A DNA stretch of 64,000 bases, taken from assembly GCA_947497945.1 (NCBI GenBank), contig CANMIP010000025.1, positions 1-64,000 of the forward strand, read 5' to 3'. This stretch comes from an uncultured Tropicimonas sp. (lineage in GTDB: Bacteria > Pseudomonadota > Alphaproteobacteria > Rhodobacterales > Rhodobacteraceae). The position numbers and the translations under genes were made by a program. Positions 38,441 through 53,343 of the stretch are shown piece after piece. The notes below the pieces were generated by a model, which was not told the DNA's origin, made no database searches, and worked only from the letters and a program-made list of their open reading frames with translations. Each line of letters opens with the position of its first letter. The stretch's first letter is position 1.

Positions 38441-39646
38441 ATGAATGAAACCGCCGCCCCCCTTCCGACTGTCCGCCTCAAGCCGAAAGCCGATGCCCGC
38501 GCCCTGCGCCACGGCTTCCCTTGGGTCTATTCCGACGAACTGGTCACCGACCGGCGCACCAAGGCGCTCGCGCCGGGCACGATTGCGCGCCTGGAGGATT
38601 CCGAGCGCCGCCCGATGGGCGTTGTCGCAGTCACGCCAGAGTCCCGTATCATCTGCCGCATGCTCGACCGCGACCCCGAGGCCGTGATCGACCGTGCCTG
38701 GCTCGCCGCCCGCATCGCGCGGGCACAGGAGCTTCGGGCCCGGCTCTTCGATGCCCCCTATTACCGCCTTGTCCATGCCGAAGCCGACGGGCTGCCCGGT
38801 GTCGTGATCGACCGGTTCGGCGACGCCGCCGTGATCCAGCCCAACGCCGCCTGGGCGGACCGGCTGACGGATGCGCTGGCCGAGGCGCTGGTCGAGGTGA
38901 CTGGCTGCAGCACCATCGTCAAGAACGGCTCGGGCCGCGCGCGGACACATGAAGGTCTGCCGGAGGAGATGAGTGTTCTCAGGGGCGCGGTCGATGGGCC
39001 GATCCCGGTGCCGATGAACGGCGCGACCTATATGGCGGACCTGCTGGGCGGCCAGAAGACCGGCCTGTTCTATGACCAGCGCCCGAACCACGCCTTCGCG
39101 GCGCGTTTCGCCGAAGGCGCGCGGGTGCTCGATATGTTTTCGCATGTTGGCGGGTTCGGCCTTGCCGCGCTGGCCGCCGGGGCGATCTCCGCGACCTGTG
39201 TCGACGGCTCCGCCGCCGCGCTGGAACTGGCCGAGGCCGGGGCACGCGCCGCCGGCACCGATGACCGCCTGACCACACGCAAGGGCGACGCCTTTGCAAC
39301 GATGGAAGCGCTGGCCGCCGAGGGCGCGCAATTCGACCTCATCATCTGCGATCCGCCCGCCTTCGCTCCCTCGCGCCAGTCGCTGGAAGCGGGGCTGCGC
39401 GCCTATGAGCGCGTGGCGCGGCTTGCGGCGCCGCTGGTGGCTCCGGGCGGCTATCTCGTGCTCTGTTCCTGCTCTCACGCGGCGGATCTGACCAAGTTCC
39501 GCAACGCCTCGGCGCGCGGCATCGGTCGCGGCGGCCGGCGCGGACAGCTTCTGCACACCGGCTTTGCCGGCCCGGACCACCCGATGCTGCCGCAGTTGGC
39601 CGAGAGCGGCTATCTCAAGGCGCTGGTCTTCCGGCTGGCGCCGTGA
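38441..39646 (+). CDS. RlmI-like class I rRNA methyltransferase
   Basis: 401 residues. The N-terminus has a PUA-like RNA-binding domain (VRLKPKADARALRHGFPWVYSDE). The central part is typical of the RlmI/YccW family (ADGLPGVVIDRFGD, then LGGQKTGLFYDQRPNH). The SAM domain follows with VLDMFSHVGGFGLAAL and the catalytic-type motif IICDPPAFAPS. E. coli RlmI methylates C5 of 23S rRNA C1962; the same target is inferred. Its stop overlaps the GTG start of the PIN gene by 4 nt. Confidence 0.85.
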   Translation: MNETAAPLPTVRLKPKADARALRHGFPWVYSDELVTDRRTKALAPGTIARLEDSERRPMGVVAVTPESRIICRMLDRDPEAVIDRAWLAARIARAQELRARLFDAPYYRLVHAEADGLPGVVIDRFGDAAVIQPNAAWADRLTDALAEALVEVTGCSTIVKNGSGRARTHEGLPEEMSVLRGAVDGPIPVPMNGATYMADLLGGQKTGLFYDQRPNHAFAARFAEGARVLDMFSHVGGFGLAALAAGAISATCVDGSAAALELAEAGARAAGTDDRLTTRKGDAFATMEALAAEGAQFDLIICDPPAFAPSRQSLEAGLRAYERVARLAAPLVAPGGYLVLCSCSHAADLTKFRNASARGIGRGGRRGQLLHTGFAGPDHPMLPQLAESGYLKALVFRLAP

Positions 39647-40188
39647 CGCGGGCGCTGCTCGACGCCTGCGTGCTCTATCCGACGGTGATGCGGGAAGTCC
39701 TGCTGGGCGCGGCCTCAGAGGGGCTGTTCACGCCGCTCTGGTCCGAGCGTCTGCTGGAGGAATGGGCGCGGGCGGCCGCGCGGCGCGGGGAACTGGACGA
39801 GATGCAGGCGCGCGGCGAGATCGCGCTTCTGCGCGCCCATTGGCCAAAAGCCTCCATCCAGCCGCGCGACGGCGATCTCGCCCGGCTCTGGCTGCCCGAC
39901 GAGAACGACATCCACGTCCTCGCCGCCGCCATTGCCGGCTCCGCCGATCTCGTCGTGACGCTGAACATCAAGGATTTCCCGCGCAATATCCTCGCCGAGG
40001 AAGGCGTGGCGCGGCAGGATCCGGACGGGTTCCTGCATGCGCTCTGGCTGGAGCATCCCGAGGCGCTGCAACGGGTCGGCGCGAAGGTTCTTGCACAGGC
40101 CGAGGAGATGGACAGCGTTCCCCATGACCTGCGCAAGCTGCTGAAAAAGGCGCGTTTGCCGCGACTTGCCAAGGCTTTGGCGGGGTGA
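39643..40188 (+). CDS. PIN-domain protein
   Basis: 181 residues, starting with GTG that overlaps the previous stop (GTGA). The N-terminus RALLDACVLYPTVMREVLL carries the first PIN aspartate. Further acidic positions lie in EEWARAA, DENDIHVLAAA and VTLNIKDFP, giving the metal-binding cluster of a PIN ribonuclease. About 60 residues follow the domain. No antitoxin-like gene is next to it; instead it is translationally coupled to an rRNA methyltransferase. It may therefore be a housekeeping RNase rather than a VapC toxin. Confidence 0.75.
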   Translation: MTRALLDACVLYPTVMREVLLGAASEGLFTPLWSERLLEEWARAAARRGELDEMQARGEIALLRAHWPKASIQPRDGDLARLWLPDENDIHVLAAAIAGSADLVVTLNIKDFPRNILAEEGVARQDPDGFLHALWLEHPEALQRVGAKVLAQAEEMDSVPHDLRKLLKKARLPRLAKALAG

Positions 40189-40221
40189 GATCGCTCGAAG
40201 CTGGCGAACGGAGCGCTGACT

Positions 40222-40382
40222 GGCATGGAAGCAAGGCGAAGCCGCCATGCCTGCGCCTGCCCGTCCCGACGGGCTGGCGCTTTGTTTCCGGCGCTCAACG
40301 GATCGATCTTTTGCGGATTTGGCAGGGATAAAGCGCAGACCACACTCGTTTCAGCGCCACCCCACGGGCAGGCGCTGGCATG
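40222..40382 (-). repeat. Dispersed palindromic intergenic element, copy 1
   Basis: In minus orientation it begins CATGCCAGCGCCTGCCCGT and reads through the conserved core TTTATCCC..CCAAATCCG to the inverted end ACGGGCAGGCGCAGGCATG (18 of 19 bases match the start). A terminal hairpin GGCATGG...CCATGCC follows. Similar to copies at 46405 and 53199. It lies between the convergent PIN gene and ileS. The remainder of the 303-bp gap holds only the ileS terminator. Confidence 0.85.
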
Positions 40383-40437
40383 GCGACCCTTGCGGGGCCG
40401 TCGACGGTAGCTTTGTCGAACCTAATGCCAACTGAAA

Positions 40438-40477
40438 AAGAACGCCGCGAATGGTTTCGCAGCGTTCTTCGTTTTTT
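40438..40477. terminator. Bidirectional terminator at the ileS 3' end
   Basis: AAGAACGCCGCGAA (40438-40451) pairs with TTCGCAGCGTTCTT (40456-40469), 13 of 14 bp, with TTTTTT at 40472-40477 on one side and AAAAA just before the left arm. It ends about 15 nt from the ileS stop codon and can also stop plus-strand transcripts from the PIN gene. Confidence 0.85.
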
Positions 40478-40491
40478 GGCCTTGGTGAGCC

Positions 40492-43425
40492 TCAGCCAAG
40501 CGCCGCATCGCAACGCTGGCAAGTGCCGTCATGCTCGTGCGTGCCGACATCGGGCAGGATCTTCCAGCAGCGCTGGCATTTCTCGCCCTCGGCCCGCTTG
40601 AAGACCACACCAACGCCCGGGGATTCCTCCAGCGTGAACGCCCCCTCGGGCGCGACGCCCTCGGTCAGGGTGATCTGGCTGGAGATGCAGATATCGGCGA
40701 AATTCACCGTCCGCAGCAGTGTCACCAAGGCGACATCCTCGACGAACACTTCCGGCGCAGCTTCCAGGGAGGAGCCGATCACCTTGTCGCGCCGCTGTAC
40801 TTCCAGCGCGGCGGTCACGACACGGCGGACATTGCGCACCCGCTCGACAAGCGTGTCTAGCTCCGGCTTGTTCCACTCGGCCGGCGTCTCCGGGATATCC
40901 TGCAGATGCACCGAGCTTTCAGCGCCCGGATACCGCTCCAGCCAGACCTCTTCCATCGTGAAGACCAGAACCGGCGCGAGCCAGGTGGTCAGGCGCTGGA
41001 ACAGGATGTCCAGCACGGTCAACGCCGAGCGGCGGTGCAGGCTGTCATCGGCGTCGCAATAGAGCGCGTCCTTGCGGATATCGAAGAAGAAGGCCGAGAG
41101 ATCGACCGTGGCGAAGGTGAAGACCTTCTGGAACACGCCCTGGAAGTCATAGGCCTCGTAGCCCTTGCGAACCTCCTGGTCGAGCTCGTAGAGCCGGTGC
41201 AGCACCCAGCTCTCCAGCGGCGGCATCTCTTCCACGGCCACCGGCTCGATCTTGTCGAAATCGCCCAGCGAGCCAAGCAGGAAGCGCATCGTGTTGCGCA
41301 GCCGGCGGTAGCTGTCGGCGACGTTCTTCAGGATCTCCGGGCCGATGCGCAGATCGGCCGTGTAGTCCGATTGCGAGACCCAGAGGCGCAGGATATCGGC
41401 GCCATATTGCTTGATGACCTGTTCGGGCGCGATGGTGTTGCCGAGCGACTTGGACATCTTGTTGCCCTTCTCGTCCAGCGTGAAGCCATGGGTCAGCACG
41501 CCACGATAAGGCGCGCGGCCATTGGTGCCACAGCTTTGCAGCAGCGAGGAGTGGAACCAGCCACGATGCTGGTCGGTGCCTTCGAGATAGAGATCGGCGA
41601 TGCCGTCCTCGGAGCCGTCCTCCCGGTCGCGCAGTACGAAGGCATGGGTCGAGCCGCTATCGAACCATACGTCCAGCACGTCGAAGATCTGCTCGTAATC
41701 ATCGGCAGCGTAATCGGAGCCGAGGAAACGTTCCTTGGCGCCGTCCATATACCAGACATCAGCGCCTTCGGCCTCGAAAGCCTCGACGATGCGGGCATTC
41801 ACGGCGTCATCGCGCAGCAGGAAGTCAAGATCATCGGGCAGCGCGCCCTTCTTGACGAAGCAGGTCAGCGGCACGCCCCAGGCGCGCTGGCGCGAGAGCA
41901 CCCAATCCGGGCGGTTCTCCATCATCGAATGGATCCGGTTACGCCCGGTCTCGGGTGTCCATTTCACCGTGTCGATGGCGTTGAGCGCGCGGCTCCGGAT
42001 CGTCTTGCCGAGCGCGTCCTGCCCGTCGCCGACCTCGCGGTCGATGGAGGCGAACCATTGCGGCGTATTGCGGAAGATCAGCGGCGCCTTGGAGCGCCAG
42101 GAATGCGGGTAGCTGTGCTTGATCCGGCCACGCGCGATCAGCGCGCCGACACCGGCCATGGCGTCGATCACCCGCTTGTTGGCGTCCTTCTCCTTGCCCT
42201 TGTGATCAAAGATCACAGCGCCGCCGAACAGCGGCAGCTCGGGGCGGAAGGTGCCATCTTCCAGCACGTTATGAGTCATTTTCAACCCGTGCTTGACGCC
42301 GAGGATGAAGTCATCCGCGCCGTGCGACGGTGCGGTATGGACAAAGCCCGTGCCGGCCTCGTCGGTGACGTGGTCGCCGGGCAACATCGGGACATCGTAA
42401 TCCCACTCGCCCATCCCGCCCTCGATGCCCCGGAACGGGTGCGCACAGACCATCAGGTCAAGCTGCTTGGCGCTGATATCCTCGGTGCGCTCGAAGGCGT
42501 CGACGCGCGCGGATTTCATCACCTCCTCGGCGAGATTGTCGGCCAGCAGGTACTCGTCGCCCACCTTGGCCCAGTTCTCCTCGGGCGCTTCGGTGACCTT
42601 GTAGAGCCCGTAGGAGAGCTCGGGGTTGAAAGCCACGGCGCGGTTGGAGGGGATGGTCCAGGGCGTGGTGGTCCAGATGATCACGTTCACGCCGCGCTGC
42701 GGCTGGCGGGCTCCGTTCTGGTCCAGCGCGCGGATGACCGGGAACTTGACCCAGATCGTGTGGCTCTGGTGGTCGTGATATTCGACCTCCGCCTCGGCCA
42801 GCGCGGTCTTCTCGACCACGGACCACATGACGGGCTTCGAGCCCTGATAGAGCGTGCCATTCATCAGGAATTTCATGAACTCGCCGGCGATGACCGCCTC
42901 GGCATGGTAGTTCATGGTCAGGTAGGGATCGTCCCAGTTGCCGGTCACGCCGAGCCGCTTGAACTCGTCGCGCTGGATATCGACCCATTTCTCGGCAAAG
43001 GCCCGACATTCGCGGCGCAGCTCGACAACCGGCACCTCGTCCTTGTTCTTGCCCTTCTGGCGATACTGCTCCTCGATCTTCCACTCAATGGGAAGGCCGT
43101 GGCAGTCCCAGCCCGGGATGTAGCGGGCATCCTTGCCCATCATCTGCTGCGAGCGGACGACCATGTCTTTGAGGATCTTGTTGAGCGCGTGGCCGATATG
43201 GAGATTGCCATTCGCATAGGGAGGGCCGTCATGCAGGGTGAAGGGCGTGCGCGGGATCGCGGCGGCCTTCTCGCGCAGCTTTTCGTAGATGCCAATCTCG
43301 GCCCAGCGGTCAAGCCAGGCGGGCTCGCGCTTGGGCAGGCCCGCGCGCATCGGGAACTCCGTGCGCGGCAGGTTGAGGGTGGGCTTGTAGTCGGGCGTAT
43401 TGGGTTCGGGCGTGTCGGCGCACAT
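40492..43425 (-). CDS. ileS: Isoleucyl-tRNA synthetase
   Basis: 977 residues, class I synthetase. The HIGH motif is in [12 protein letters not shown] and the KMSKS motif in [14 protein letters not shown]. The editing domain lies in between. The C-terminus carries a zinc-knuckle segment with cysteine pairs ([11 protein letters not shown] and TCQRCDAAL), so it is the bacterial zinc-bearing form. It is a single gene with its own terminator. Confidence 0.97.
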
Positions 43426-43993
43426 GGGTTGCGTCCTCTGGATATACGTCTGTTCGGATGGTTCGGTCGGCGCGGGCAGCCCATACGCCTTGTCCCGGCG
43501 GCTCGATCTCTCAGAGCGCCGGGCCGGTAATTCGAATGATGATCGACCATATCAGCATCTTGAGCGCGGGCTTAGCGCAATCGCAGGCGGGGGTCCAGAG
43601 CGGCGATACGTCCCGGCAGTGCAGCCGTGGGGAGCGGGGCTGATTGCGCGCCGCACAGGTCGTTGTTGCGGCCGGAGAACCGCCCTGTGGGTGGCCAATT
43701 TTCCCGCACCGTAGCCCATGTCACCGCCTGCCCGTGAGGTGGCGAAGCGGCGTGCAAACTCCGCGCCGTGTTTGAGCGATGTTCGAAGACGGTCAGCCCC
43801 GCAGTGCGGGGTGTCAATGCTCCAACCCGAAAGGGGAGCCTTGGGACAGTCAGGCTTCGAAAGACCCGGGCATCCGCAGGGCAGCGGCGCCGGGTCCCTT
43901 GCCCTTCAGCACTCGCCCCCATCTCGCCAATCGGCCCCGCGCCCGGACCTGCAACCGGATCTCTCGGCAGCCCCTGTCGCCTTGTGGCCCGCG
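43426..43993. other. Gap between ileS and selD
   Basis: 568 bp without a supported gene. It includes a degenerate partial copy of the dispersed element near 43716-43755 and a 7-bp palindrome CCCCGCAGTGCGGGG at 43797-43811. The ileS promoter should lie in the left part on the minus strand; I cannot pick it out. Confidence 0.4.
43716..43755 (+). repeat. Partial, degenerate copy of the dispersed element
   Basis: CCATGTCACCGCCTGCCCGT followed by GAGGTGGCGAAGCGGCGTGC resembles the left end of the three full copies (CCATGCCAGCGCCTGCCCGT then GGGGTGGCGC). The core and right end are not found, so this is one end only or a chance match of a GC-rich hairpin. Confidence 0.4.
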
Positions 43994-45058
43994 TCAGGCC
44001 ACCACGATCCGGGGATCATCCGTCTGCGCGCCAACTTCGCCCACAATGGAGGCCTGTTCGAACCCGTGCTGCGCGAACACTGCCTGCACCGAGGCCAGCG
44101 CATCCGGGGCGCAGGAGACCAGCAGGCCACCCGATGTCTGCGGATCGGTCAGCAAGGCGCGATCGACCTCCGAGAAGCCGGCCGGCAGAGCCACTTCCGC
44201 GCCGTAGCTGGCCCAGTTCCGGCCCGAAGCGCCGGTGACAAAGCCATCCTCCGCCAGCGAGCGGACCTCGTCCATGAAGGGCACGGCCGACCAGTCAAGC
44301 TGCGCCTCGCAGCCGGCCCCACGCATCATCTCCAGCATATGACCGCCGAGCCCGAAGCCGGTGACATCCGTCATCGCATGCACCCCGGTCAGCTCGGCAA
44401 GCTCCGGTCCGGGCGTGTTGAGCTGGGTCGTCATCGCGATCATGCGCGCATATCCCGCCTCGCTCAGGGCGCCCTTCTTCAACGCCGCCGAATAGACCCC
44501 TGCCCCGAGCGGCTTGCCCTGCACCAGCAGGTCGCCCGTCCGGGCCGAGGCGTTCTTCTTGATCAGGTCGGGATGGACCAGCCCCAGCGCAACCAGCCCG
44601 TAAATCGCCTCGACCGAGTCGATGGAATGGCCGCCAACGACCGGGATACCCGCCGCCCGCGCCGCCGTCTGACCGCCTTCGAGGATACGACCGATCGTCT
44701 CCTTGGAGAGCACGTCGATCGGCATCCCGACAAGCGCCAACGCCATGATCGGCCGCGCCCCCATCGCATAGACATCGCTGATCGCATTGGTCGCGGCGAT
44801 GCGGCCGAAATCATGCGGGTCGTCGACGATCGGCATGAAGAAATCGGTTGTGGCGACCAGCGCCTGCTCGTCATTGAGCCGGAAGACAGCCGCGTCATCC
44901 GCATTTTCCGTCCCCACCAGCAACGCCTCGGGCAACGCCATCGGGCTCGTCTGCCGCAGGATCTCGGAGAGCACCGCGGGGGCGATCTTGCAACCGCATC
45001 CGCCGCCATGGGACAGCGAAGTCAGGCGCGGTTCGGAGGAAATGGTGTCGGCGGTCAT
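43994..45058 (-). CDS. selD: Selenide, water dikinase
   Basis: 354 residues from the ATG at 45058. It makes selenophosphate from selenide and ATP. The active-site motif SHGGGCGCKIAP places Cys21 and Lys24 at the positions of E. coli Cys17 and Lys20. The ATP-binding region has DDAAVFRLNDEQALVATTDFF and the glycine-rich VHAMTDVTGFGLGGH. It carries Cys, not selenocysteine, at the active site. No selA, selB, selenouridine synthase or tRNA-Sec is in the window, so the use of the selenophosphate is not shown here. Confidence 0.94.
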   Translation of the reverse strand: MTADTISSEPRLTSLSHGGGCGCKIAPAVLSEILRQTSPMALPEALLVGTENADDAAVFRLNDEQALVATTDFFMPIVDDPHDFGRIAATNAISDVYAMGARPIMALALVGMPIDVLSKETIGRILEGGQTAARAAGIPVVGGHSIDSVEAIYGLVALGLVHPDLIKKNASARTGDLLVQGKPLGAGVYSAALKKGALSEAGYARMIAMTTQLNTPGPELAELTGVHAMTDVTGFGLGGHMLEMMRGAGCEAQLDWSAVPFMDEVRSLAEDGFVTGASGRNWASYGAEVALPAGFSEVDRALLTDPQTSGGLLVSCAPDALASVQAVFAQHGFEQASIVGEVGAQTDDPRIVVA

Positions 45059-45268
45059 GGCGTGGCTCCAGCGCGAAAAGGCGGTTTGGACGGGTTCGAC
45101 GTGAGTGGCCGCACTAGTCCCGCCGGGCCGTGCTGTCAATGTCACGCGGCCGCCGGAGGGGCGCTCCCCTGCCCTGAAACCGCCACACGCGCCGAAGGCG
45201 CGCCACCCCCCAAAGGGACGAGATGCCGAAGGCGTCGAGTGCCGAGGGGAAGCCCGCCCGCAGCGGGC

Positions 45269-46243
45269 TCAGACGGTCGGGGTTGCGCCCGCGAGCACGG
45301 TCCGGAAGACATCCGTGTCGACATTGCCGCCCGAGAGAACGACACCGACCTTGCGCCCCGCCATCGCGCCGCGTTCCTGGCAGAGCGCCGCAAGCGCCGC
45401 CGCCCCCGCCCCTTCGGCGACGTTGTGGGTGCATTCGAAATAAAGGCGCATGGCGGCGGCGACCTCGTCATCGCTCACGGCGACAATCCGCGCCGCACCG
45501 CGCCCATAGATCTCGACCGCCTCCGGAACCGGGATACGCACCGCCATCCCGTCGGCAAAGGTCGCGGCGCTGTCGGTCTCCACCGGCCGTCCGGCCTCGA
45601 CCGTGAGCTTGGCACAGGCGGCCCGTGTCGAGACCACGCCGACGATTTCGGTCGCCAGCCCAAGCGCGTCGCGCGCCAGGATCGTGCCGCAGATGCCCGA
45701 GCCACAGCCGATCGGCACATAGACCGTGTCGAGATCCCCGAGCGCGTTGAACATCTCCCAGCCATAGGTGCCGACCCCGCGCACCAGTTCGGGATGGAAG
45801 GGCGGGACGATGGCCAGCCCTTCCTCCGCCGCGACGCGCACCGCCTCTTCGCGCGCCGTATCGAAATCGCTGCCATGGACGACAAGCTCGGCGCCATAGG
45901 CCTCCATCGCGGCGTTCTTCTCCACCGAATTCCCCTCGGGCACAAAGACCAGCGGCCGCAACCCGGCCGCCCGCGCCGCCAGCGCCTGGCTCTGGCCGTG
46001 ATTGCCGCGCGTTGCCGTGCAGATCCCGGGCACCTCCGGCTGGCTGCGCCGGAGCCAGTCGATGAAGGTGATACCGCCGCGGACCTTGAACGCACCGGTC
46101 GGGGCGTGGTTCTCATGTTTCACCCATGTCTCGACACCGATCCGGCGGGAGAGCAGCGGCCAGTGGCGCTGCGGGGTCGGCGGAACGAGACGGTGCACCA
46201 TCTCGGCGGCAGCGTCGAATTCCTCGGCGGAGAATCGGATCAT
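45269..46243 (-). CDS. Threonine/serine dehydratase-like PLP enzyme
   Basis: 324 residues from the ATG at 46243, with AAGGAG ahead; a longer in-frame start would read through the repeat element and is rejected. Fold-type II PLP enzyme: lysine Schiff base Lys53 in APTGAFKVRGG, the TRGNHGQSQALAA asparagine loop and the phosphate-binding loop GCGSGICGT. There is no C-terminal ACT domain, so it resembles catabolic threonine dehydratases and related enzymes such as EutB of ectoine breakdown. The context gives no hint of the substrate. Confidence 0.8.
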   Translation of the reverse strand: MIRFSAEEFDAAAEMVHRLVPPTPQRHWPLLSRRIGVETWVKHENHAPTGAFKVRGGITFIDWLRRSQPEVPGICTATRGNHGQSQALAARAAGLRPLVFVPEGNSVEKNAAMEAYGAELVVHGSDFDTAREEAVRVAAEEGLAIVPPFHPELVRGVGTYGWEMFNALGDLDTVYVPIGCGSGICGTILARDALGLATEIVGVVSTRAACAKLTVEAGRPVETDSAATFADGMAVRIPVPEAVEIYGRGAARIVAVSDDEVAAAMRLYFECTHNVAEGAGAAALAALCQERGAMAGRKVGVVLSGGNVDTDVFRTVLAGATPTV

Positions 46244-46622
46244 GGCGGGCTCCTTGCGATTGCGCGCAGAGAAGCACTGCCGGGGCAGACGAGCAATCGG
46301 GGATGGCGCGACGCACCGTCTCAACCGACGCCCGCATCTTGGAGAGCGCCTCATTGCCGAAGGCGCGGCCCTTGGCTCCGTTGGCACAGAAAAGCACCTC
46401 CAGTCGTGCCAGCGCCTGCCCGTGGGATGGCGCAGCGACAGCCGAAGTCCGCGTTTTATCCCACCAAATCCGAATAAGACCTGAGCGTTGCACGCGGGTG
46501 AGAAAGCGCCAGCCCGCCGGGACGGGCAGGCGCCGGCACGGTGGCCTTCGGCCTTGATTCCGTGCCCGCCAGCACTCTGCCCCAATGCCCGCTATCGGTT
46601 CAGGGCGCGTCTGCCCCCAGGT
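46244..46622. other. Gap between the carrier gene and the dehydratase-like gene
   Basis: 379 bp, mostly occupied by copy 2 of the dispersed element (46405-46566). No gene or clear terminator is seen in the rest. Confidence 0.4.
46405..46566 (+). repeat. Dispersed palindromic intergenic element, copy 2
   Basis: Begins CGTGCCAGCGCCTGCCCGT and carries the core TTTTATCCC..CCAAATCCG. It ends in ACGGGCAGGCGCCGGCACG, inverted with 18 of 19 matches, then a hairpin GGCACGG...CCGTGCC with inner GGCC/GGCC. Relative to copy 1, the second base of each inverted end and the matching hairpin positions change together (A/T pair in copy 1, G/C pair here). Confidence 0.85.
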
Positions 46623-47993
46623 TCAGAAATATCTCAGCCAGAGATAGACGTTGGCGATCATCAGCGTCAGGATCATGATCGGAAATGCGACCCGCGCGAA
46701 GGCGATGAAACCGATCGGCTGATGCGCCTTCTCGGCAAAGGCGGCGACGGTCAGGTTCGCCGAAGCGCCGAGCAGCGTTCCGTTGCCGCCGAGACAGGCG
46801 CCGAGCGCCAGCGACCACCAGAGCGGCTCGATATTCCCCGCCCCGAATGTCGCCTCCGTCGACTCGATCAGCGGGATCATGGTCGCCACGAAGGGGATAT
46901 TGTCGAGGATCGCCGACAGGATACCCGAGGCCCAGAAGATCAGGAAGGCAGTCCACATCATGTCCCCTTCGGTGAAGTCGAGCACGGCCTGTGCGAAGAT
47001 CTCCAGCAGGCCGACATGTTCGACCCCGGCAACGATGACGAAGAGCCCGCCGAAGAAGAAGATCGTGACCCATTCCACTTCGCCGAAGACATGGTGGAAC
47101 GTGTCCGACTGCTGGTCCGCCGGCTGGTGGCCATAGGCCAGCAGCATCAGCAGCGCCGCGCCGGCCAGTGCCGAGGTGCCCGGCTGGATTCCATAGCCAT
47201 GGCCGAGGGTGAAACCCATCAGCACCAGCGCCAGCACGCCCAGCGACTTGAACATGAGCTTGCGGTCCTGGATGGCGCCGCCAGCATCGAATTTCATGAT
47301 CCGGTCGCTGGCCGATTTCGGGATCTGTTTCAGCGCCTTGCGGTTCATCAGGTAGATGATCCCGGTCAGCACGACGAGACAGATTGCGGCGATCGGCGCG
47401 AGGTTCATGACGAAATCGTTGAAGCTCAGCCCGGCGGCGGAGCCGATAATGATGTTGGGCGGGTCACCGATCAGCGTTGCCGTGCCGCCGACATTCGAGG
47501 CCAGGATCTCGGCAACGAAGAACGGAAAGACCTTGGTCTCCAGCGCTTCGGTGATCAGCAGGGTGATCGGCGCGATCAGCAGCACGGTGGTCACGTTGTC
47601 CAGCAGCGCCGAGAAGATCGCGGTGATCAGCGTCAACATGATCAGGATGCCGGTCGGGTCCGCCTTGACCGCCTTGGCCGCCTTGATCGCCACATATTGG
47701 AACAGGCCCGAGCGCGAGGTGATGGCAACGATGATCATCATGCCGATCAGCAGCGCCAGCGTGTTGGCGTCGACACCGGCCACGGCCTGCGCCTGGTTGA
47801 TGATCCCGAACAGGACCATCAACGAGGCGCCGAGCATGGCCAGCACCGCGCGGTTCACCTTCTCGGTGATCAGCGCGGCGTAGACGAGGATGAGGATGCC
47901 GGTGGCCATCCAGAGCGGGTCGATCCCGAGCATGTCGGGGAGCGAGAAGCCCGCCCCATGCCCTGCCCCATGGGCTGCTGTTTGCTCACTCAC
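46623..47993 (-). CDS. NhaD/ArsB-type ion transporter
   Basis: 456 residues with about 11-12 membrane helices, ion transporter superfamily. Typical conserved stretches are SALLDNVTTVLLIAPITLLI, ASNVGGTATLIGDPPNIIIG and, in the second half, SAILDNIPFVATMIPLIES with GACLGGNGTLLGASANL. These paired DN and GG(N/T) motifs fit sodium/proton antiporters of the NhaD kind or arsenite/anion pumps; sequence alone does not choose. The first 18 residues are His/Gly-rich. It overlaps the preceding CBS gene by 8 nt. Confidence 0.82.
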   Translation of the reverse strand: MSEQTAAHGAGHGAGFSLPDMLGIDPLWMATGILILVYAALITEKVNRAVLAMLGASLMVLFGIINQAQAVAGVDANTLALLIGMMIIVAITSRSGLFQYVAIKAAKAVKADPTGILIMLTLITAIFSALLDNVTTVLLIAPITLLITEALETKVFPFFVAEILASNVGGTATLIGDPPNIIIGSAAGLSFNDFVMNLAPIAAICLVVLTGIIYLMNRKALKQIPKSASDRIMKFDAGGAIQDRKLMFKSLGVLALVLMGFTLGHGYGIQPGTSALAGAALLMLLAYGHQPADQQSDTFHHVFGEVEWVTIFFFGGLFVIVAGVEHVGLLEIFAQAVLDFTEGDMMWTAFLIFWASGILSAILDNIPFVATMIPLIESTEATFGAGNIEPLWWSLALGACLGGNGTLLGASANLTVAAFAEKAHQPIGFIAFARVAFPIMILTLMIANVYLWLRYF

Positions 47994-48501
47994 TGTTTTC
48001 GTCTTCCATATCTTCGGGTTGGGCCAGCACGTGTTCGAGCAGCGAGTTGGCGCTCATCGTGCCCACGAACCGGTTGGTGTCGGGATCGACGAGAATCACG
48101 TGCCGCTTGTATTGGTGGATGAGGAAAATGCCTTCCATCACCGGCGTTTCCGGCGCGGTAACGGGTATATTCTCCGGGTTGGAGAGATTGTCCCCGACCT
48201 TCTCGTTCTTGAGCTGGTCGAGCCGGGCGGCGAAATCCTCTTCCGTCAGGCGCATGAAGCCGAGATAGTTGAGCGGCACGCGCGTGTGCTCAAGGCCGAT
48301 CAGCGCCGCCTTGGGCAGGATCAGCTTGAGCAGGGTCGGCGCAGTGAAGACACCGACATATTTGCCCGCGTGATCAACCACCGGCAGGAAGCGCGCGCGG
48401 CTCTGCTTGATGATGTTGAAGGCCTTGGCGACGCTCTCCTCCGGATGGATCGTGTGCTGCACCTCCGGTGCCACCATCACATCAAAGCATGTCAAACCCA
48501 T
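47986..48501 (-). CDS. CBS-domain protein
   Basis: 171 residues with two CBS motifs: the first around HTIHPEESVAKAFNIIKQSRARFLPVVD, the second around IPVTAPETPVMEGIFLIHQYKRHVILVD followed by NRFVGTMSANSLLEHVL. CBS pairs bind adenine nucleotides and gate partner proteins. Its 3' end overlaps the start of the transporter gene by 8 nt, so the two are translated together and the CBS protein probably regulates the carrier. Confidence 0.85.
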   Translation of the reverse strand: MGLTCFDVMVAPEVQHTIHPEESVAKAFNIIKQSRARFLPVVDHAGKYVGVFTAPTLLKLILPKAALIGLEHTRVPLNYLGFMRLTEEDFAARLDQLKNEKVGDNLSNPENIPVTAPETPVMEGIFLIHQYKRHVILVDPDTNRFVGTMSANSLLEHVLAQPEDMEDENSE

Positions 48502-48921
48502 ATCGGACCTCGATTTCTCTACAATGGGACCGCCTGCTTGCCTGTCGGCCCGGGGCGGGCGATGTCGCCGCTGGACTCACCCGACAGAGTAAGCCGGTTG
48601 CGGGCCACTGCAATGGCTGCTTGATTTCACTTCTTCACCTCTCGCGCCAGCGAGCAGATTGCATAGCCGGGTTTCCTTTGCCGCAGCGTCACATTGGTGG
48701 GAAGCGAGTCGTTTTCGTCCTGAACGACCGGACAATGCGGTCAGCCGCGCGAGACGGGACCGGTCTTCCGGAGGACAATGAGCGCATGCGCCGGGTCGGC
48801 GGAATGCGTCAGAGGGAGTAGCACCAGCTGCCCCCTTGTCGGGGCCCGATCACATCCCGGCTCTCGGTTCCTTTACCGCGGCAGGCTGGTGATCGGGGCT
48901 GCGAGACCCTAGACATGTGGG
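48502..48921. other. Gap between the CBS gene and selO
   Basis: 420 bp between divergent genes. I find no open frame with neighbour-like codon use, no RNA gene and no clear promoter or terminator. Confidence 0.4.
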
Positions 48922-50364
48922 ATGGATCTGAAAATCGCCTTCGACAACAGCTATGCGCGCCTTCCGGGCCGGTTCTTCATGCGGCAGGCGCCCGTTCCGG
49001 TGCGCGCGCCGGAGCTCTTGCTGCTCAATCTCGGTCTGGCCGAGGAGCTGGGACTGGCCGGGGACGCGCTGCAATCTCCCGATGGTGTCGAGATGCTTGC
49101 GGGCAATGCCGTGCCAGAGGGCGCCGAGCCGCTGGCGCAGGCCTATGCCGGGCATCAGTTCGGAGGATTCTCGCCGGTGCTGGGCGATGGCCGGGCAATC
49201 CTTCTGGGCGAGGTGATCGATGACACCGGAACCCGGCGGGATCTCCAGCTCAAGGGATCCGGGCAGACAGCTTTCTCGCGCCCCGGCAGCGACGGACGGG
49301 CGCCGCTTGGGGCGGTGATCCGGGAGTTCATCGTCTCAGAGGCGATGCATGCGCTCGGCATCCCGACCACGCGGGCGCTGGCGGCGGTGGCCACGGGCGA
49401 GCATGTCCGGCGCGAGGCGATGCTGCCGGGCGGCGTGCTGACGCGGGTTGCGTCCAGCCATATCCGGGTCGGAACCTTCCAGTTCTTCGCCGCGCGAGGC
49501 GATACCGAGGCGCTCCAGGCGCTGCTCGACTACGCTATCGCGCGCCACTTTCCGCAGGCCGACGGCCCGATGGGCTTCCTTGACGCCGTGATCGAAGGCC
49601 AGGCCAGGCTGGTGGCGCAATGGCTGGGCGTGGGCTTCATCCACGGCGTGATGAACACCGACAACACCGCGATCTCCGGCGAAACCATCGATTTCGGCCC
49701 CTGCGCCTTCATGGACAGCTTCCACCCGGCCACCGTCTATTCCTCCATCGATCGGGGCGGCCGCTACGCCTATATGCGCCAGCCGGAGATCCTCGCCTGG
49801 AACCTCGCGCAGCTTGCCTCGGCGCTCCTGCCGCTGATGGGCGAACCGCAGGACGCGGCGCTGGAGGCGGCACAGGCGGCGGTCGAGCGCTATCCGGAGT
49901 TGGTGCGCGCGCAATGGGCCGAGGTGTTCGGCCGCAAGATCGGGTTGCAGCGCCGCGAAGATGGCGACGCGGCGCTGGCGGCGGGGCTGCTGGAACGGAT
50001 GGCCGAAGAAGGCGCGGATTTCACCAACACGTTCCGCGCGCTTGTGACGGGCCGGGCACGGGACGAATTCACCGATCCACTGGCCTTCGATCATTGGGAA
50101 GAAGGTTGGCGCGCGCGTCTTGCGCGGGAACCGGAGCCCGAGGCGCTGGCCGCACGGCTGAAACAGGCGAACCCGGCGGTGATCCCGCGCAATCACCGGG
50201 TCGAACAGGCGATCGCGGCGGCGATGCAAGGGGATCTGTCCGTGGCGACGCGGCTCATCGGCGCGCTGGCCCGGCCTTTTGACGACCTTCCGGAAGAGCT
50301 GGCCGACCTCGCCCGACCGCCGCTGGAGGAAGAGCGGGTTCAGCGCACCTTCTGCGGCACCTGA
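48922..50364 (+). CDS. selO: SelO/YdiU family protein adenylyltransferase
   Basis: 480 residues. SelO is a pseudokinase-fold enzyme that transfers AMP to Ser, Thr or Tyr of target proteins. Family features include [20 protein letters not shown], the nucleotide-binding [20 protein letters not shown] and [20 protein letters not shown] (catalytic Asn/Asp region). The C-terminus ends TFCGT; in many SelO proteins this penultimate region has selenocysteine or cysteine, here cysteine. The 3' end overlaps the convergent EamA gene by 25 bp. Confidence 0.93.
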
Positions 50365-51239
50365 CGGTTGATCAGCACCAGCCCCAGCGTGACAAGCGCC
50401 AGCGCACCGAGCAGGCCGGGCGCCAACTCTTCGCCGAGGATCAGCCAGCCCATCGAGACCCCGAATATCGGAGTCAGGAAGCTGAAAGCGGCAACGGAGG
50501 CCGGGGGATAGACCGAAAGCAGCCAGAGCCAGATCGAGAACCCGATCGAGACGACGAGCACGGTCTGCACCGCGAGTCCCCACCAATGGATCGGCTGCGG
50601 CTCGCGAAGCAGCTCGCCAAAGAGCGGCGAGAGCACAAGCAGGAGCGGCGCCGAGACGGCAACCTGCCAGAAGAGCTGGCTCTGCGCATCGACCCCGGCA
50701 AGCTTTGTGCCACGCGCACAGAGCGCGATCCCGGCCCAGGCAAAGGCCGCGCCAAGGGCGTAGAGATCGCCGGCCAGCGATGCCTCCCCGCCCCCGCTAC
50801 CCCGGTTGAGGATTGCCCATGCGACGCCGGCGAAGGCGACCAGCAGGCCCGCCACCTTGTTCCGGTTCAGCCGCTCGCCGGGCAACACGAAATGCGCAGC
50901 AATCGCGAACCAGACCGGCATCGAATAGAAGATGACCGAGGAGCGGCTCACCGTCGTCAGGTCCAGCGCCTTGAAAAGGAAAAGGAACTCTGCAGTGAAG
51001 GCCAGGCCGATCAGCAGCCCGGCCGGCCAGATCTCTCGCCGCAGGTCCAGGCGCTTGCCCGCCAGCCGCATCAGCAGCCAGATGCAGGGCACCGCGCCGG
51101 CCGAGCGCAGCCCGGCCCAGAAGACGGGCTGCAACCCCTCGTTCACGACCTTGATGATGACCTGGTTGAAGCCCAGGAAGGCCGAAAAGCCGATCAGCGC
51201 CAGCGCACCGAACATGTCGATCCTGTCCTTGCGCGGCAT
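50340..51239 (-). CDS. EamA/DMT-superfamily transporter
   Basis: 299 residues, ten predicted membrane helices in two EamA repeats; conserved [20 protein letters not shown] and [20 protein letters not shown] close the repeats. Such proteins export or exchange metabolites. The start [13 protein letters not shown] allows a second ATG nine codons later. Its last 25 bp overlap the 3' end of selO in antisense. Confidence 0.85.
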
Positions 51240-51413
51240 TGGCGATCCTCCTTGACCGGGCCGACCTGCGCCAGCACATGGCGGAAGTCAAGCCGGCGCA
51301 ACAGAGGCAGCGTTGCAACGCTCCCCGGATTGTTACCGCGCCGGCGGATCAAAAGAGTTCACGCCGAATCACCCCCGCGATAGCCTCGCCCCATAACAAG
51401 GACGGAAAAATAC

Positions 51414-51572
51414 ATGTCCGAGAGAGCAGTGGCGACGGTTCGTCCCGAAGAGGCTGGGGACGAAGCGGAAATCTGCGGGCATCTGCCCCGCTATCCCGAA
51501 TATGAAGGGGACTCCCCTTGCCGGGAGACAATCGACGCGGTCGATCTCGTCTCCGGCGAGGGCCAGGCGTGA
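51414..51572 (+). CDS. Small protein, 52 residues, coupled to the DUF2927 lipoprotein
   Basis: Reads MSERAVATVRPEEAGDEAEI and on through CGHLPRYPEYEGDSPCRETI to a short DAVDLVSGEGQA tail, with stop TGA at 51570-51572. That stop overlaps the GTG of the next gene (GTGA), the arrangement of coupled genes. An AAGGA lies upstream, rather far (about 12 nt) from the ATG. The protein is acidic, has two cysteines and no signal peptide or membrane segment. I do not recognise the family. Support comes from the overlap and from neighbour-like codon use. Confidence 0.6.
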   Translation: MSERAVATVRPEEAGDEAEICGHLPRYPEYEGDSPCRETIDAVDLVSGEGQA

Positions 51573-52942
51573 GGCTGCGCGCGATCCCGTTCGCGGCGCT
51601 GACCCTTGCGTTGGCGGCCTGTGCCCCCGGACCCTCGGCCGACATTGCCGCCCGACAGGTGAGCAATGCCGCCCCGTTGCCGGCCATGCGAAGCTTCTCC
51701 ACAGTCTCGTCGTCGCCCAGCGTCCGGACCAACCGTCAGCTTGCCGGCGACTTCCTCGAACTGACCTTCGAGCTGGAAAGCGGCCGCGAGATCCCGCGCC
51801 TGACCCGGTTCGACGGCGAGATCACGCTGGAGCTGCGGGGAGAGGCCTCGCAAAGCGTCCGGCGCGACCTCGACCGGCTGATCGCGCGGCTGAAGCGCGA
51901 GGCCGGGCTGCCCGTCCGGCTGGCCCGGACCGGCGAAGCGGCCTCCATCGTGGTCGAGGTGCTGCCGCGCAAGGAACTGCAACGCGCGGTGCCGCAGGCG
52001 GCCTGTTTCGTCGTCCCGCGCGTGCGCGGTTGGGAGGAGTTCCGCAAGGCGCGCCGCTCGGGCAAGGTCGACTGGACAACGCTCTACGAGCGCGAGGTGG
52101 CCTCTGTCTTCCTGCCCGGCGATGTCTCGCCACAGGAGGCGCGCGATTGCCTGCACGAGGAGATCGCCCAGGCGCTCGGACCTCTCAACGACCTGTATCG
52201 GCTGCCGGATTCCGTCTTCAACGACGACAATTTCCACACCGTTCTGACCGGGTTCGACATGCTCATGCTGCGCGTGACCTATGACCGGGCCCTGGCCAAC
52301 GGGATGGGACGGGAACAGGTCGCGGCCGCCCTGCCCGGCATCCTCGCCCGGCTCAATCCGCGCGGCGAACGCGCCGGCCCGCCGCCCGCACAACCGACAC
52401 CGCATATCTGGGTCGAGGCGATCGAAAATGCGCTCGGTCCGCGCGGCACGCCCGGTTTCCGCCGCGCCCAGGCGCGACGCGCGGTCGATCTTGCCGGCGC
52501 GGCCGGCTGGAACGACACCCGCATGGCCTTCTCGCTCTATGCCTATGGCCGGCTGGCGCTCAACACCGCCCCGGACCAAGCCCTCTCCGCCTTTGTCGAA
52601 GCCTCCAATATCTACCATTCGCTCCCCGACACGCAGGTCCAGGCCGCCCATGTCGCCATGCAGCTCGGCGCTTTTTCCCTGAGTGCCGGCGAGGCCAACG
52701 CGACGCTGAGGCTGGTCGAAAGCAACCTTGCGGCGGTCCGACAGGCAGAGAATGCGGCCCTTCTGTCGACCCTGCTGATGATGCGGGCCGAGGCGCTGGA
52801 ATTGCTCGGACGCAGCTCCGAGGCAGCCGCGCAGCGCAACGAAGCGCTTGGCTGGGCCCGCTACGGTTTTGGCTCTGACAGTCTGGTGCGCGAACGCGCA
52901 AGCGAGATCGCGGCCCTTGCCCCCGTCCGGGCCGGCTTGTAA
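51569..52942 (+). CDS. DUF2927 lipoprotein with C-terminal repeat region
   Basis: 457 residues from GTG 51569. It begins MRLRAIPFAALTLALAAC, a lipoprotein signal with Cys18. The DUF2927 domain (about residues 50-265) includes the conserved CLHEEIAQALGPLNDLYRLP with a zincin-like HEE, then VFNDDNFHTVLTGFD. The last ~150 residues have alternating helices of TPR type (LSAFVEASNIYHSLPDTQVQ). DUF2927 is a protease-like domain of unproven activity, so a periplasmic membrane-anchored hydrolase or scaffold is a guess. An in-frame ATG at 51518 would add residues before the signal sequence and is unlikely. Confidence 0.8.
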   Translation: MRLRAIPFAALTLALAACAPGPSADIAARQVSNAAPLPAMRSFSTVSSSPSVRTNRQLAGDFLELTFELESGREIPRLTRFDGEITLELRGEASQSVRRDLDRLIARLKREAGLPVRLARTGEAASIVVEVLPRKELQRAVPQAACFVVPRVRGWEEFRKARRSGKVDWTTLYEREVASVFLPGDVSPQEARDCLHEEIAQALGPLNDLYRLPDSVFNDDNFHTVLTGFDMLMLRVTYDRALANGMGREQVAAALPGILARLNPRGERAGPPPAQPTPHIWVEAIENALGPRGTPGFRRAQARRAVDLAGAAGWNDTRMAFSLYAYGRLALNTAPDQALSAFVEASNIYHSLPDTQVQAAHVAMQLGAFSLSAGEANATLRLVESNLAAVRQAENAALLSTLLMMRAEALELLGRSSEAAAQRNEALGWARYGFGSDSLVRERASEIAALAPVRAGL

Positions 52943-52971
52943 GCGGCTGTCGAGGCAAGGGGAGAAGAACG

Positions 52972-53136
52972 ATGATTGTCATTCTGGCCGCGCTGGCCGG
53001 CGCGATCTGGGGCGGGCTGCTGGCCAAGAAACGGGGCGGCAAACCGGCGGATATCGCACAATACGCGGCGGGCTACGGCATCGCATTCGCGCTTGCGGGG
53101 CTGTTTGTGACCATTGTCCTGGAGCGGCTCCTCTAG
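52972..53136 (+). CDS. Small two-helix membrane protein, 54 residues
   Basis: Reads MIVILAALAGAIWGGLLAKK, then RGGKPADIAQYAAGYGIAFA and LAGLFVTIVLERLL. Two hydrophobic segments (residues about 2-18 and 33-50) flank a short positive loop, so both ends should face the same side. A strong AGGGGAG ribosome-binding site lies ahead, 29 nt after the DUF2927 stop, so it is probably in the same operon. The function is unknown. Confidence 0.7.
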   Translation: MIVILAALAGAIWGGLLAKKRGGKPADIAQYAAGYGIAFALAGLFVTIVLERLL

Positions 53137-53198
53137 GTTTGGGCGGCCGCCGACGGAGCGAGTCTTCGCTGCGAATGCAAAGAACGACTTTCGGTAAC

Positions 53199-53343
53199 CG
53201 TGCCAGCGCCTGCCCGTGGGGTGGCACTGCACCCTCAGTGGTCTGCACTTTATCCCGGCCAAACCCGAAATGGATCAGGAAATAGCGCGCTTGTAACTAA
53301 GCGCCAGCCCGCCGCAACGGCGGCTTCGCCCTGTTTCCGTGCC
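53199..53343 (+). repeat. Dispersed palindromic intergenic element, copy 3 (right end shortened)
   Basis: Begins CGTGCCAGCGCCTGCCCGT like copy 2 and keeps the core CTTTATCCC..CCAAACCCG and AAGCGCCAGCCCGCC. The segment that should hold the inverted right end is missing: the sequence passes to CCGCCGCAACGGCGG, itself a hairpin, and then TTTCCGTGCC. It fills much of the 346-bp gap between the small membrane protein and the VWA gene; the rest shows no gene. Confidence 0.8.

Follow-up and report, generated by a model that had tools for sequence, protein, structure and literature searches.

What kind of sequence recurs, with the same inverted ends, between the genes of a single stretch of bacterial DNA? 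The window, as we call the 64-kb stretch analyzed here, comes from the assembly of an uncultured Tropicimonas sp. (G000, hereafter the source genome; 5.79 Mb in 115 contigs). A first-pass annotation had pointed out three intergenic copies of an element in it and had suggested that they were mobile or structural elements resembling either miniature inverted-repeat transposable elements (MITEs) or REP sequences. That suggestion gains support from the more than one hundred places that the element occupies in the source genome, from lineage-specific subfamilies, from covariation, and from placement between genes at their 3′ ends. We consider the element to be, probably but by no means certainly, a non-autonomous, non-coding, mosaic mobile repeat of Rhodobacterales, similar to ERIC and YPAL and kept at gene 3′ ends by selection.

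All three copies were found at the positions and on the strands reported for them, with model matches at 40222-40384 (minus strand), 46403-46566 (plus), and 53198-53343 (plus); we refer to these as copies 1, 2, and 3. Within the window, the left end that they were said to share, GCCAGCGCCTGCCCGT, occurs exactly at these copies only, and at 11 places when up to three mismatches are allowed, against 3.0 expected. The shared core, TTTATCCCNNCCAAAYCCG, occurs with up to three mismatches at the same three copies only (0.15 expected), and copy 2 reaches it only at three mismatches because this copy is one base short. Three occurrences each of the exact left end and of the core motif at this tolerance are far above what shuffled sequence gives. 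Inverted ends with 18 of 19 matches could be read directly in copies 1 and 2; in copy 3 the right arm is mostly gone. Inversion extends beyond the 19 bp first described: pairing of GGGATGGCGC with GCGCCAGCCC further inward brings the arms to about 30 bp. Outside these palindromic ends, the three copies align over their full length, non-palindromic middle included. The first-pass annotation had missed a degenerate fourth copy at 43717-43855 (plus strand, E 2.7e-7) as well as weakly conserved outer ends, with which the unit reaches up to about 256 nt in the source genome.

The search of the whole genome and of related genomes that had been proposed as a check showed how widely the element is spread. 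A sequence-only model (R1), built from 28 copies (alignment A2), gave 141 matches in the source genome at E ≤ 0.01, or 110 distinct places once overlapping matches, mostly reverse-strand echoes of the palindrome, were removed. Among these places, 79 scored at least 46.9 bits and 77 were at least 140 nt long, with the best E-values reaching 1e-41. Five of the nine genomes of the genus had matches at E ≤ 1e-8, with 94 rows in the source genome (reverse echoes included), 14, 10, 3, and 3 in four others, and none in the remaining four. With a structured model (R2) at E ≤ 1e-9, and nine candidates scored per genome, 117 of 295 family genomes matched (294 genera, about one genome per genus). Family here means the Rhodobacteraceae of the genome collection, whereas NCBI splits Rhodobacterales into Roseobacteraceae and Paracoccaceae. 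A class-wide draw of 385 genomes (E ≤ 1e-6, seven candidates each) returned the source genome and one other family member only. Because nine and seven candidates were scored per genome, the family and class searches give minimum copy numbers and may have missed weak copies. An exact 41-base pattern, searched over a collection of 84,980 species, was found in 44 stretches, with genera by title that included Puniceibacterium, Sediminimonas, Aliiruegeria, Alloyangia, Roseovarius, Salipiger, and Paracoccus; the 14 genera looked up were all Rhodobacterales. Distant matches also lie on plasmids of Salipiger, Pacificitalea, and Pseudosulfitobacter (6 records), one of them between two ABC-transporter genes on one strand.

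The consensus core of about 166 nt runs from a 5′ arm, AGCCGTGCCAGCGCCTGCCCGTGGGATGGCGC, through an apical part of 70-80 nt with a conserved CACTTTATCCCGGCCAAATCCG, to a 3′ arm (AAAGCGCCAGCCCG..ACGGGCAGGCGCTGGCACGG) and a 3′ hairpin (GGCACGGCGGCCTTCGGCCTTGATTCCGTGCC). The outer ends in the source genome are weaker, with TTGCGGACGGAGCGG..TTCGCTGCG before the core and ATCAGCGCTCCGCCCCAACGTCCGCTATCGGCTC after it. In the two best-matching pairs of copies, which lie at different loci, the common unit measures 257 and 234 nt and is 90-93% identical, whereas the median for 1249 copy pairs is 77%. A genome of another genus (G016) holds 21 copies in which the core alone is conserved and the outer ends are not. 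The outer ends are not supported as a separate repeat, given that 12 of the 14 places of the left outer end in the source genome carry a core match or its remnant at or beside them. The two left ends that have no core match nearby (G000:C3:134281-134306 and G000:C6:73936-73961) are either deletion remnants or a separate small repeat.

Some copies have smaller modules inside them. Nested small hairpins were seen, at two preferred points, in 9 of 19 source-genome copies chosen for odd length or a cut-off match; examples are GGCGATTGC..GCAATCGCC, GGGCATTGC..GCAATGCCC, and GCGCCATTGG..CAATGGCG. These hairpins, which are perfect in L060, L063, L065, L066, L068, L070, L071, L084, and L087, may be independent REP-like units. 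Two or three copies in the same orientation also form tandem arrays (G002:C12:176819-177520, G111:C3:92690-93094, G160:C6:124897-125308, and L099:2003-2360), and the spacing in such arrays is 229-376 nt (G002, G016, G111, and G160). In the source genome, where this was counted, neighboring copies within 600 nt all lie on one strand.

Placement relative to genes was assessed with a purpose-written codon-usage gene finder. For the source genome, we used 72 of the 79 best places, leaving out the seven weakest; a further fragment, the 73rd, sits at the edge of a locus. None of the 72 copies overlaps a predicted gene, which agrees with the earlier statement that all copies lie between genes. Gaps between convergent genes hold 32 of them, codirectional gaps 34, and divergent gaps 6, against 6.0, 39.6, and 26.4 expected from the lengths of 172 copy-free gaps (chi-square p 9e-29). 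The 21 copies of G016 agree with the source genome (9 convergent, 11 codirectional, 1 divergent), and one of them (L102) shares 148 nt with a predicted gene. Another 20 copies from other genomes divide into 10, 9, and 1, with two more at edges. Overall, of the 113 copies that could be scored, 105 are downstream of one or more predicted genes, and in codirectional gaps there is a weak bias in orientation, with 33 copies in sense and 21 in antisense. We saw no enrichment of terminator-like hairpins in the space that separates a stop codon from the copy (13 of 86 source 3′ ends vs. 10 of 92 in the baseline), so that targeting of terminators is not supported. On the wrong strand such hairpins numbered 2 of 86 facing copies and 2 of 92 in the baseline, and in G016 they stood between gene end and copy in 2 of 17 cases. 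Several slots start, as read by eye, directly behind a terminator.

Intergenic DNA has diverged too far between the source genome and the rest of its genus to allow a comparison of empty sites; one copy is common to the source genome and another species (G004), downstream of the same transporter gene. We read slot turnover in two strains of Alloyangia pacifica, KcN7-14 (G683) and DSM 26894 (G682), with 48 and 23 matches at E ≤ 1e-5, respectively. The slot flanks are 86-96% identical, mostly 90-94%. The 28 orthologous slots are a non-random set: 31 of the 48 listed G683 copies and two weaker ones were read, some slots were picked for a copy at the expected place in both genomes, and five copies had no orthologous stretch to compare. 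Seven slots hold copies in the same orientation (L163, L223a, L225b, L238, L239a, L240, and L261), where L239a has a truncated partner that showed in one comparison and was called as no element in another. In five, the G682 copy is decayed or internally deleted (L176, L217, L229, L241, and L258, the last classed from slot lengths alone). Eight slots have no element called in G682 (L211, L213, L215, L219a, L235, L239b, L252, and L254); four of these keep fragments that by eye resemble the 3′ hairpin, two per orientation and with profile scores at noise level, and the remainder is filled by other sequence. In the last eight, the two genomes have oppositely oriented copies (L219b, L223b, L225a, L231, L233, L237b, L263, and L267), with partial copies involved in the L263 and L267 pairs. 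One contig pair that was read throughout (G683 C7 and G682 C26) has six copies, of which one is in the same orientation, two are reversed, and three face slots with no element called.

The reversed slots are the oddest result of this analysis. Mean loop identity was 0.78 for the seven same-orientation pairs, 0.50 for the eight reversed pairs, and 0.51 for unrelated pairs (n = 210); in the six full-length reversed pairs, it ranged from 0.51 to 0.65, against 0.58 for 132 unrelated pairs. The loops of reversed partners are thus as unlike as those of unrelated pairs, so that the partners look like different copies, and the flipping of a single copy is not supported. The flanks near the element differ as well at these slots. 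Loop identity lies at 0.65-0.71 in four of the seven same-orientation pairs, within the range of unrelated pairs (maximum 0.79), and for this reason the contrast between eight reversed pairs and no unlike pairs in the same orientation is weaker than its binomial p of 0.008. It is conceivable, at rather long odds, that resident copies are swapped in place for reversed other copies by an undescribed kind of recombination that uses the palindromic arms. If that were true, the family would be a set of swappable, orientation-free 3′-end blocks common to Rhodobacterales genomes, and not a classical transposon.

Two side observations concern the slots themselves. Opposite the missing L213 copy, the G682 slot (L214:7740-7795) has another short sequence, GCCTCCGGCGGGAGTATTTGGGGAAAGATGAA, a motif that is common at the ends of genes in Rhodobacterales; L212 carries the partly similar CCCCGGGATATTTACGACATATGGAAG, and a search of the window did not find the GCCTCCGGCGGGAGTATTTGGGGAAAGATGAA motif there. 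A second 3′-end repeat may use the same slots as the element. Directly beside one slot lies a pair of palindromes, GTTTCACGTGAA/TTCACGTGAAAC (L215:2235-2290 and L216:6992-7050), which resemble ParB parS sites.

That the copies have spread is indicated by the roughly one hundred places, the lineage-specific subfamilies, and the turnover of slots. Several results weigh against a mobile repeat. A search of the source genome for REP-type Y1 transposases (PF01797) had no match, where 5 of 14 control genomes were positive. The first-pass annotation had also proposed looking for target-site duplications and for an autonomous relative. The borders of 21 source-genome copies, compared by eye, had no consistent duplication; and the model matches of that genome, likewise read by eye in an assembly of 115 contigs, contained no left-only and right-only pair that might enclose an autonomous element. 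An element carrying an open reading frame between these ends was not found, nor was a clean empty site. The slot differences between the Alloyangia strains are not polarized, and several are losses in one genome. Finally, pairing kept across the family exceeds what decaying MITEs need and can also mean a host function. With no target-site duplication at these borders and no such pair among these matches, the word mobile rests on the dispersal of copies and on slot turnover rather than on a recognized signature of transposition.

The mechanism that we favor is movement in trans or exchange by way of the palindromic arms. Copies may multiply by copying themselves into resident copies or by trading places with them, probably by way of a folded single strand and with an enzyme supplied in trans. 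Selection would then remove insertions in genes and promoters, so that those at 3′ ends remain, and any effects on transcripts or DNA topology would be secondary. An inverse insertion beside a resident copy would create a very long palindrome, which could drive the loss of the resident, whereas neighbors in the same orientation could persist as tandem arrays.

Structure was examined in an alignment (A3) of 65 selected copies from eleven genomes (24 from the source genome, 20 from G016, and 21 from nine others). The source copies were the first 24 in locus order with a hidden Markov model score of at least 128 and a near-complete match, and those from the ten other genomes were near-complete; truncated copies were dropped, and pairing percentages therefore lean high. 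The core folds into a long hairpin of about 30 bp and a second hairpin at the 3′ side. Two-sided changes were seen in 21 of 30 pairs of the long hairpin (152 cells, which none of 500 shuffles equaled; slid controls at most 40 cells) and in 24 of 32 pairs of its upper part plus the 3′ hairpin (187 cells, again above all 500 shuffles, with no slid control above 50). In the 3′ hairpin, one pair reads AU in 40 copies, CG in 18, and GC in 7, and is unbroken in 65 of 65. Alignment column 148 pairs with both of its partners, with the one in the long-hairpin base in 55 of 65 copies and with the one in the 3′ hairpin in all 65. As the same letter pairs in both, the three segments vary together. A bistable switch between the long-hairpin base and the 3′ hairpin (hairpin IV) is not supported, because the long form is favored by a mean of 8 kcal/mol and only 13 of 65 copies have both forms within 4 kcal/mol of each other. 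The two 3′ segments are 94% paired locally, but a G-U to C-A ratio of 1:13 speaks against such local pairing on this strand. Neither strand is favored in folding (sense better in 30 of 65, p 0.30), nor is the excess of G-U over C-A in the long hairpin significant (33:23, p 0.23).

Conserved pairing downstream of genes raises the question of whether the element serves the host as RNA. In 3′ untranslated regions, its hairpin could stabilize the upstream transcript, stop read-through, or insulate operons, roles that have been proposed for REP and ERIC. Its position behind genes in nearly all scorable copies, the family-wide conservation of pairing, the copy behind the same transporter gene in G004, and one copy that has decayed arms and no loop all favor such a role. 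Against it, the orientation bias in codirectional gaps is weak, folding and G-U content distinguish neither strand, four genus genomes have no match, and slot orientation differs between close genomes. We regard this explanation as unlikely, although it is the best of the rivals. Somewhat less probable still is a BIME-like element of DNA topology, a cruciform-prone palindrome between convergent genes that would serve a topoisomerase or a nucleoid protein. The marked excess in convergent gaps and a structure that is symmetric on both strands, with orientation of little weight, would suit it. Selection against promoter damage could also explain the convergent preference, and several close relatives have no match.

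Membership in the CIR repeats of Caulobacter and other alphaproteobacteria is very improbable. CIR repeats are likewise alphaproteobacterial, intergenic, and folded, and some copies of the element have GANTC in their 3′ part (CIR as described in part of PMC2229807); GANTC falls within the last 45 nt in only 32 of 65 copies, however, the core has 166 nt rather than about 110 and one long hairpin that joins both ends, and the class-wide draw matched family members only. That GC-rich hairpins merely look alike by chance, as high G+C and palindromic arms might suggest, is refuted by motif counts above expectation, by the E-values of the model, by an alignment that holds across the non-palindromic loop, and by a 41-base pattern confined, by titles and the genera looked up, to Rhodobacterales.

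In the window itself, the core of copy 1 (model 2-166) lies between convergent genes, a PIN-domain gene (39643-40188, plus strand) and ileS (40492-43425, minus), and is followed on the minus strand by a weakly conserved right outer end at 40189-40221, CAGCGCTCCG...CGATCT, recognized in an alignment of 31 copies. The degenerate fourth copy (model 4-131) lies between ileS and selD. Copy 2 (model 2-166) lies between two minus-strand genes, downstream of one for a CitMHS/ArsB-type transporter (46623-47933) and upstream of one for a threonine dehydratase (45269-46243). Its parts, all on the plus strand, are the 5′ arm of the long hairpin (46403-46433), the conserved unpaired apical motif TTTATCCC.CCAAATCCG (46454-46472), the 3′ arm with GCGCCAGCCC and ACGGGCAGGCGC.GGCAC (46507-46541), hairpin IV (46535-46566; GGCACGG...CCGTGCC), whose 5′ strand is shared with the base of the long hairpin, and the right outer end CAGCACTCTGCCCCAATGCCCGCTATCGGTTC (46570-46601). 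The core of copy 3, with its 3′ arm mostly deleted, starts 61 nt past a small predicted open reading frame and upstream of a VWA/CoxE-type gene; its left outer end, GCCGACGGAGCGAGTCTTCGCTGC, is at 53149-53173 (plus).

The first-pass annotation had not recognized a named family, and we came to the same result. Rfam 15 gave a single tRNA as its match in the window, and for copy 2 at E ≤ 10 four weak matches far below threshold; with no match at the gathering score, a named Rfam RNA is not supported as its identity. The part of the literature that we searched had no report of the element or name for it. Rhodobacterales are well-studied marine and metabolic models, and yet a structured repeat in 117 genomes of a 294-genus family sample, with about 100 places in the source genome, has no Rfam model. 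The element lends itself to studying how small palindromic repeats can travel when no transposase is in sight, what makes them gather at gene 3′ ends, and why a single slot can hold dissimilar, oppositely oriented copies in two closely related genomes. Its annotation would also aid that of intergenic regions and small RNAs in the family.

How, then, does the element compare with known repeats? REP sequences sit at gene 3′ ends, as it does. According to the parts of the sources cited here, ERIC/IRU and YPAL (RU-1 and RU-2) of enterobacteria and Yersinia are intergenic, non-coding, and present in many copies of 127-168 bp, ERIC forming a single long stem-loop (PMC2267715, PMC2229807); REP/BIME (PU) are palindromic, intergenic mosaics of small hairpins of 20-40 nt with a RAYT transposase and GTAG/CGTC tags (PMC3733652); CIR repeats have about 110 bp, two arms with a linker, and a highly conserved GANTC (PMC2229807); and MITEs such as NEMIS/Correia and RUP are named in PMC3733652. 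Compared by description, and by sequence only through Rfam, the element resembles ERIC/YPAL in size, in being intergenic, non-coding, and multi-copy, and in the long stem-loop between its two ends; it differs in host group, in a second 3′ hairpin that shares a strand of the long one, and in the nested modules of some copies. With REP/BIME it shares the palindromic, intergenic, mosaic build as well as placement, but its core is 166 nt rather than 20-40 nt and the source genome has no Y1 transposase match, so that membership in REP/RAYT is not supported. CIR repeats, also alphaproteobacterial and intergenic with conserved folding and GANTC, are set apart by core length and by the GANTC found in only half of the aligned copies, a separation based on the description of CIR and not on its sequence. 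Like MITEs, the element is short and dispersed, has inverted repeats at its core ends, and lacks coding capacity; unlike them, it has no target-site duplication and no partner transposase was found for it. Of the defining features that were tested, it does not show those of REP/RAYT and CIR and misses one of those of MITEs; it comes closest to ERIC/YPAL in form, to REP/BIME in placement and mosaic build, and to CIR in host group.

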